DNA from: Candidatus Saccharimonadota bacterium
GTDB taxonomy: Bacteria; Patescibacteriota; Saccharimonadia; Saccharimonadales; Saccharimonadaceae
Reading direction: 5' to 3'
DNA length: 38,254 nt
NCBI GenBank assembly: GCA_027492735.1
Contig: JAPUEE010000024.1
Location: 1-38,254 of the forward strand
Below the pieces are notes generated by a model that saw nothing but the letters and a program-made list of their open reading frames with translations, did not search any database and was not told the DNA's origin. Made by a program: the position numbers and the translations under genes. Shown here one piece after another: positions 1 to 839 of the stretch; positions within the stretch are counted from its first letter, which is position 1; every line of letters begins with the position of its first letter.

Positions 1-51
1 AATTTGACCCCACTCTCCGGCATCGGAGCCTGGTGTTGGTAGACGAGTCAT
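1..51 (-). CDS. 5' end of an unidentified protein, runs off the window
   Basis: Only the first 17 codons are present: MTRLPTPGSDAGEWGQI. The ATG at 51 is preceded by a GGAGGT Shine-Dalgarno about 10 nt upstream (near 62-68), which makes the start convincing. From memory, N-termini of the form LPTPGxDxGxWG are common on secreted, tail-fibre-like or beta-helix surface proteins, where they precede a long repetitive or receptor-binding part. That family link is inference from a very short stretch. The gene lies behind a promoter with a 14-G run in its spacer (separate entry), an arrangement typical of phase-variable surface proteins. Confidence 0.6.
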   Translation of the reverse strand, partial: MTRLPTPGSDAGEWGQI

Positions 52-111
52 GATAGTGTTATACCTCCGTTTTTCAAAAATACTACTCTGTTAATGCTTA
101 TGTATTGTACT

Positions 112-141
112 ATTATAGCACCCCCCCCCCCCCCATCTGAA
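112..141 (-). promoter_or_regulatory. Promoter with 14-G homopolymer spacer, probable phase-variable switch
   Basis: Read on the minus strand, an extended -10 (TGC TATAAT, 120-112) is immediately preceded by an uninterrupted run of 14 G (134-121), and TTCAGA (141-136) matches 4 of 6 bases of a -35 box. The spacer is 18 bp in this assembly and consists of the G run plus TGC plus one base. Gain or loss of G by slippage would change the spacer length directly, as known for Neisseria porA and opc and Bordetella fim promoters. The predicted start of transcription is near 105, about 54 nt before the ATG at 51. Confidence 0.65.
121..134. repeat. Mononucleotide run, 14 C on plus strand / 14 G on minus
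   Basis: Fourteen consecutive C are seen on the plus strand. I noticed no other mononucleotide run of this length in the window. It is intergenic, between truB and the partial gene, and sits exactly where the spacer of the promoter for the partial gene would be. The true length in a population may vary, and sequencing error at homopolymers could also shift the count. Confidence 0.95.
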
Positions 142-179
142 GCAAGATACTTTAGATTAAGCAATGAGGGGGTCGAGGT

Positions 180-839
180 TTACTTTTCTATTTTTATGGT
201 TTCGCTGCTATTGATATCGTATGAACCAACTCTGGTACGGCGTAGTTCTGTAGTATAAGCGCCAGTACCTAGCGAGTCACCGATGTCTTTGGCGAGTGTT
301 CGAATATACGTACCAGATGATACACGCGTACAAATAGTCATGAGCGGATATTCGTAGCCGAGCAGCTCGATACTGTAGATTTCAACTTCTCGGGATGGCA
401 TCTCTATAGGCTGTCCGGTTCGTGCCAATTTATATGCTCGCTGTCCATTGATCTTTATGGCCGAAAAGACAGGTGGGGTTTGCGTAATCTTGCCCAGGAA
501 TGTCTCGACCGTCTGCCTCACCCGATGCTCGGTCGGGATATTCTGCACCGTCTGCTCAGTGATTTCACCCTCTGGATCACCGGTTGATGATGTAGCACCC
601 AACCTAATAGTTGCCTCATAGACTTTGTCTAATTTAGAGAATTCACTAGCTCGACGAGTGAACGTGCCACTAAGTAGAATCATTAACCCTGTCGCAAACG
701 GATCTAGAGTTCCGGTGTGTCCGACTTTGACTTTCCGTCCCGCCTGTTCGGATAGCTGACGACGAACCCTAGCAACAACTCCAAACGATGAAATACCGGC
801 GGGTTTATCAGCTAAAATGATTCGATCAAATTGTTCCAA
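180..839 (-). CDS. truB: tRNA pseudouridine(55) synthase TruB
   Basis: This enzyme isomerises U55 to pseudouridine in the T-loop of tRNAs. The N-terminus has the family pattern (IILADKPAGISSFGVV) and the catalytic motif GHTGTLDPFATG with Asp46. Later blocks YEATIRLG, PPVFSAIKINGQRAY and VSSGTYIRTLAKDIG are also typical. At 219 residues it lacks the C-terminal PUA-type part of the roughly 300-residue enzymes. The start codon is TTG: no ATG lies near the conserved N-terminus, and a TGA-TACAAT box (856-848) ends 8 nt upstream, so the mRNA may be leaderless. It follows the DHH-family gene by 22 bp, matching the widespread rbfA-DHH-truB order. Confidence 0.93.
   Translation of the reverse strand: MEQFDRIILADKPAGISSFGVVARVRRQLSEQAGRKVKVGHTGTLDPFATGLMILLSGTFTRRASEFSKLDKVYEATIRLGATSSTGDPEGEITEQTVQNIPTEHRVRQTVETFLGKITQTPPVFSAIKINGQRAYKLARTGQPIEMPSREVEIYSIELLGYEYPLMTICTRVSSGTYIRTLAKDIGDSLGTGAYTTELRRTRVGSYDINSSETIKIEK

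Follow-up and report, generated by a model that had tools for sequence, protein, structure and literature searches.

Poly-G tracts in Saccharibacteria promoters: a putative multi-locus switch of fibre-like and pilin genes

Introduction

A run of fourteen G residues lies inside a promoter at the very edge of a contig from a Saccharibacteria draft genome, ahead of a gene that leaves the assembly after its first 17 codons. It raises the question of whether such a run is a switch, a fixed piece of promoter structure or an error of sequencing. The window, by which we mean the whole stretch of DNA analysed (38,254 nucleotides), had been attributed to a CPR bacterium in an earlier note made from the sequence, and this attribution is supported, as the family is the one that also contains 'Candidatus Saccharibacteria bacterium RGIG4362' (L091).

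The question matters because it touches on the means by which ultrasmall epibionts recognise their bacterial hosts, move between them and share them. Regulation in reduced epibiont genomes is almost unknown (PMC11665869), and a stochastic, multi-locus switch of fibres and pilins would, if true, account for differences between single cells in how they bind hosts, with no regulators needed.

We propose that in these bacteria slippage at multiple loci makes the transcription of fibre and pilin genes phase-variable, a reading that we consider probable on the strength of the sequence comparisons described here.

The promoter at the contig end

On the forward strand the run is C14 at positions 121-134, which is G14 on the minus strand. 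Read along the minus strand, the order is ...TTGCTTCAGAT-G14-TGC-TATAAT..., then GGAGGT at 68-63 and an ATG at 51-49. The features of the locus are:

1 to 51, minus strand: opening 17 codons (MTRLPTPGSDAGEWGQI) of a gene of the LPxPGxD family, assigned by N-terminus comparison; the remainder lies beyond the contig
63 to 68, minus strand: ribosome-binding site GGAGGT, from the sequence
112 to 120, minus strand: extended -10, TGC-TATAAT, with the hexamer at 112-117 and TGC at 120-118, from the sequence and a consensus scan
121 to 134, minus strand: G14 homopolymer, a putative slippage tract in the promoter spacer, from the sequence and a genome-wide count of G runs
136 to 141, minus strand: first -35 candidate, TTCAGA, with a spacer of 18 bp, from the promoter scan; the choice of the earlier note
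140 to 145, minus strand: second -35 candidate, TTGCTT, with a spacer of 22 bp, from the sequence and from sister cassettes with a TTGAC-type -35
180 to 839, minus strand: truB, the upstream neighbour, for context only (Pfam TruB_N, 1.1e-48)

The sequence and the promoter scan agree that a poly-G tract lies within a promoter spacer, where the earlier note had placed it, and the extended -10 that it described is present at 112-120 of the minus strand and belongs to the same pair in the scan. This pair, TTCAGA/TATAAT, matches the consensus at 10 of 12 positions and has the TG. The weak -35 of the note, TTCAGA, does exist at a spacing of 18 bp, but TTGCTT (145-140) is as plausible; it would set the G14 promoter far off the usual 17-bp spacing. 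The -35 is thus ambiguous, and with two candidates the ON or OFF state of G14 is not readable from the sequence. The description of the spacer as holding nothing else was too simple, since it consists of T, G14 and TGC.

A run of G8 is expected 0.18 times by chance in the window, and the window shares with porA-type promoters a homopolymer of at least about 8 bases between -35 and -10. The neighbouring truB ends ahead of the poly-G promoter and is not under its control, and the frame that begins at the ATG (MTRLPTPGSDAGEWGQI) is open up to the contig edge.

The contig ends 120 bases from the tract, several of the genome's other tracts are also near contig ends, and the assembly is a draft of 26 contigs. 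These facts are what one would expect if the tracts were assembly or sequencing artefacts, produced by two-colour-chemistry errors or homopolymer miscalls. The breaks have another explanation, however. The start of the window gene is identical, at 17 of 17 residues, to that of a copy on contig C6, and C6 and the window contig (C24) terminate in an identical stretch of 51 bases, so that both contigs break because the gene start is common to the two.

Sister tracts in the same genome

The genome to which C24 belongs has 816,744 bases and is 97.6% complete. It holds 15 distinct G runs of at least G10, of which 12 lie in a promoter spacer, and together with two G9 runs these give 14 promoter-spacer tracts, 13 of them with a TTGAC -35. 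In 13 sister promoters a G9-G13 run stands between TTGAC and the -10. That the window might contain a single odd promoter is ruled out by these other runs and sister promoters.

Nine of the 14 tracts are upstream of LPxPGxD genes (C3, C4, C6, C11, C15 twice, C22, C24 and C26) and three are upstream of type IV pilins (C13 twice and C21). The other two (C5 and C17) reach contig ends and share their cassette with a C15 LPxPGxD promoter. The LPxPGxD N-terminus occurs at 10 places in the genome, and the tenth copy, at C4:103861, has a plain promoter with an 18-bp spacer and no G run.

As a separate observation, a G11 run at L058 (G000:C22:2278) precedes a broken pilin start (GRGFTIVELLS, then a stop), perhaps the remnant of a decayed switchable pilin.

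Spread among relatives and beyond

We searched the 245 genomes of the window's Saccharibacteria family with the pattern TTGAC-N(1-10)-G9-N(0-9)-TANNNT, using the reversed pattern as a control. The placement of the tracts is beyond chance, as the family gave 147 matches against 3 for the control and the window genome 15 against 0. The family matches fall in 36 of the 245 genomes and 22 of 61 genera. Artefactual runs would hardly keep one position relative to promoter elements across 36 genomes with a reversed control that is nearly empty. The runs are, moreover, internal, with unique flanks on either side, and their G residues are on the non-template strand of the downstream gene. Directionality, position and control together rule out the artefact reading, to which we attach next to no probability.

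The poly-C version of the pattern matched 22 times (control 2) against 147 for poly-G, and G on the non-template strand is therefore preferred over C. Such a strong strand preference, and the length of the G14 run itself, would be consistent with a G-quadruplex or the site of a G-specific regulator being what acts, rather than spacing. Most tracts are only G9-G10, however, which is less than a stable intramolecular quadruplex of three tetrads needs, and their close confinement to the interval between -35 and -10 agrees with control by spacing, so that we regard this alternative as very unlikely.

Genome G072 has seven promoters whose poly-C tracts take a form of their own (TTGACAAGA-C9/C10-ATTGTG-TATAAT type), in which the C run adjoins the -35 and not the -10.

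Of 380 genomes drawn from across the phylum, 12 matched, two within the family (the window genome and G010) and 10 outside it. A scan of named genomes found the layout, among the matches listed, also in gut Bacilli, Clostridia and others, so the promoter poly-G device is not exclusive to Saccharibacteria. The matches listed include rabbit Bacilli, Clostridia, Ancillula, Spirochaetota and gut and termite-gut bacteria, and the ORFs that follow the listed tracts in gut and termite-gut bacteria often have starts that resemble signal peptides.

When orthologous tracts were compared across genomes, the sole identical pair was G087:C16 and G140:C14, which looks like a misbinned or shared contig. The tract and gene start of RGIG4362 (L091) are the same as those of G238:C35, in a genome of the window's family. 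It was also observed that L251 and L265, in genomes of different genera, are identical over a tract locus of 600 bp, for which misbinning of a contig or a recent transfer is the probable cause, and that G087:C6:281517-281547 carries an interrupted tract (GGAGGGGGGG) ahead of an LPxPGxD gene, possibly a locked switch.

Genes downstream of the tracts

The window gene carries the N-terminal motif MTRLPTPGSDxGxWGxI, and its start is 82-94% identical to eight copies other than that on C6. The contig holds 17 codons of the gene itself, and collagen-like bodies are known from its paralogues, in which Pfam finds collagen repeats (PF01391, 2.1e-30) and also fn3. None of the LPxPGxD starts looks like a signal peptide. 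The N-terminus is present in 62 of the 245 family genomes, in up to 20 copies per genome. At the LPxPGxD loci inspected in other genera a G run is mostly missing, and the tract therefore seems to have been added to a wider gene family.

Searches with the N-terminal module and a short flank gave zero matches in Pfam, PHROGs and NCBIfam. By tblastn the module is found in Streptomyces phages, where 33-36 residues align at 47-61% identity with a best E of 2e-6, and there it heads proteins with other bodies, one of them with a pectate-lyase-like fold. We note the form LPxPGxD...WG..LND[YF]L as common to Saccharibacteria collagen-like proteins and Streptomyces phage proteins (L048:3862-5313, P0001-P0003). 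As the hosts of cultured Saccharibacteria are Actinobacteria (PMC10633639), a module common to these proteins and actinophage proteins hints at a role in host binding without establishing it. The earlier note had taken the gene to encode a surface or fibre-type protein. The collagen repeats of the paralogues and the phage-like module argue for a fibre type, whereas a surface location sits less easily with paralogues that have no signal peptide. Its further suggestion, that switching the protein might help to evade immunity, is without support, and it is more natural to think of varied attachment to bacterial hosts.

The pilin targets carry the prepilin GFTxxE N-methylation motif, with PF07963 matching one of the C13 copies at 6.5e-6 and the C21 copy at 2e-6, and with matches to TIGR02532 as well. 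In N. lyticus type IV pilins drive host binding, and type IV pilus mutants have host-binding phenotypes (PMC12206443).

Across the family, 110 ORFs downstream of tracts were classifiable, as LPxPGxD (16), pilin (11) or having an N-terminal TM or signal stretch (36). By a simple heuristic, 47 of the 110 are without an N-terminal TM or signal stretch, many of these being from genus g21, and an N-terminal hydrophobic stretch is found in 29 of 147 background ORFs by such a heuristic. Genus g21 (G020, G072, G096; L227-L246, L256-L258) has many poly-G promoters before soluble proteins without an N-terminal TM or signal stretch.

Mismatch repair and tract length

The MutS domain PF00488 is absent from the window genome and from 244 of the 245 family genomes, the single match being weak (31 bits), and 11 of the 14 genomes used as controls contain it. 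In line with this, published work saw no evidence for MutS or MutL in Saccharibacteria (PMC8406219). In the absence of MutS homopolymers should slip often; being family-wide, the absence cannot explain why tracts occur in only some genera.

Cassettes with near-identical flanks within the window genome differ in their tracts, with G12 at the C5 end, G13 on C17 and G10 on C15 in one set, and G11 on C3 and G10 on C11 in another, these lengths being uncertain by about 1 because short-read assemblies miscount homopolymers (PMC4577077). A G075 cassette, TTGACACCCCCTCC-Gn-TACCAT, is found with G10 and with G7. In other duplicate cassettes the tract lengths are equal.

Spacer length

Ordinary TTGACA/TATAAT promoters of tract-bearing genomes have a 17-bp spacer in 96 of 137 cases among the matches listed, which come from part of the 18 genomes searched and cover spacers of 16 to 22 bp. 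Poly-G promoters whose tract abuts the -10 have it in 3 of 53 (Fisher p about 6e-17 against the ordinary promoters among the matches listed, a baseline that is a sample with stricter hexamers than the poly-G set). The possibility that this depletion is an artefact of requiring G9 was rejected, as it persisted at a threshold of G5-G6. TGN precedes the -10 in 101 of 142 ordinary promoters of related genomes, among the matches listed.

When tracts as short as G6 are counted, given a good -10 box (n=58), 18 have spacers of 15-16 bp, two of 17 bp and 32 of 18-19 bp, and the tails of poly-G spacers extend to 20-21 bp. Among tracts directly next to the -10 the commonest lengths are G9-G10 and few tracts have G6-G8, which is the reverse of random decay, and tracts reach G17 in relatives. 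There is no correlation (Spearman 0.09) to indicate that the remainder of the spacer compensates for the number of G. Either the assembled state is usually 1-2 bases away from the optimal spacing, or the optimum itself is moved by poly-G.

The second of these options could mean that the tract is a fixed structural spacer, in which the unusual twist and rise of poly-G make 18-19 bp optimal, the promoter is constitutive or regulated by a factor, and length is conserved. The 32 of 58 promoters at 18-19 bp rather than 17 are consistent with this, as are the many tracts of exactly G9 or G10 and the preference for non-template G over C (147 and 22 matches, respectively). A fixed length would not, however, be expected to give another cluster, of 18 among the 58, at 15-16 bp, tails to 20-21 bp, relatives with G17 or near-identical cassettes that differ by 1-3 G within one genome, and in tract-bearing cells without MutS such runs should be unstable. 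We therefore consider a fixed spacer unlikely, if less so than the quadruplex or the artefact.

Proposed mechanism

We return to phase variation by slippage as the preferred reading. The G run would gain or lose bases in replication, and without MutS these slippage errors would escape the usual mismatch repair. Each change of the tract would shift the distance between -35 and -10 and hence recognition by RNA polymerase, so that expression of each fibre or pilin gene may vary at random, from cell to cell, between high, low and off. With LPxPGxD collagen-like fibre paralogues and type IV pilins as the targets, a clone could display many combinations of host-contact proteins. Slippage within the population, transcription that depends on tract length, a surface location of the products and their role in host attachment are steps that we infer.

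A bolder version, to which we would give even chances, is a genome-wide combinatorial display in part of the Saccharibacteria. At least a dozen poly-G promoters, unstable without mismatch repair, would independently switch phage-fibre-like receptor-binding proteins and pilins, one clone would present many host-binding types, and the assembled state would usually be 1-2 bases off the active spacing. A multi-locus switch of fibres and pilins would also predict that draft assemblies of Saccharibacteria break or miscount at tract loci and so hide a variable gene set. Cultured Saccharibacteria can be naturally transformed and are amenable to allelic exchange (PMC10633639).

Comparison with known systems

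The literature searched holds no report of promoter poly-G switching in Saccharibacteria or other CPR bacteria. Its sole case of slippage-type hypervariation in a CPR bacterium is a hypervariable repeat gene of Gracilibacteria (PMC6851277), which differs in that 9-base coding repeats vary in one gene there, and here the homopolymers are in promoters. Helicobacter canadensis has many poly-G tracts whose lengths vary in reads, five of them candidates in possible promoters (PMC2823697), but its tracts are mostly intragenic, whereas the pattern searched here is one of promoters.

The target genes have their own likeness to known proteins. BRock gp186 and LuckySocke gp41 of Streptomyces phages share the start MxRLPxxxxDxGxWxxxLNDFLLxEHNNDGTL, followed by a different body, although these are phage genes and were not seen under poly-G control.

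At opc of N. meningitidis a promoter-region homopolymer of C controls a surface structure. The same type of control is cited for fim of Bordetella pertussis in PMC3899988. Both differ from the present case in being poly-C, which is rare here (22 matches against 147). The closest known system is porA of Neisseria meningitidis, which has a poly-G spacer (van der Ende 1995, as described in PMC3899988). There, as here, poly-G lies between -35 and -10, and in porA one-base changes alter the transcription of a surface protein. That system concerns one promoter, whereas at least 14, with putative switching, are found here in a 0.8-Mb Saccharibacteria genome without MutS, and the targets are fibre-like and pilin genes. 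The type of mechanism is thus known from porA, and what appears to be new is its presence in Saccharibacteria, together with the scale and the targets.
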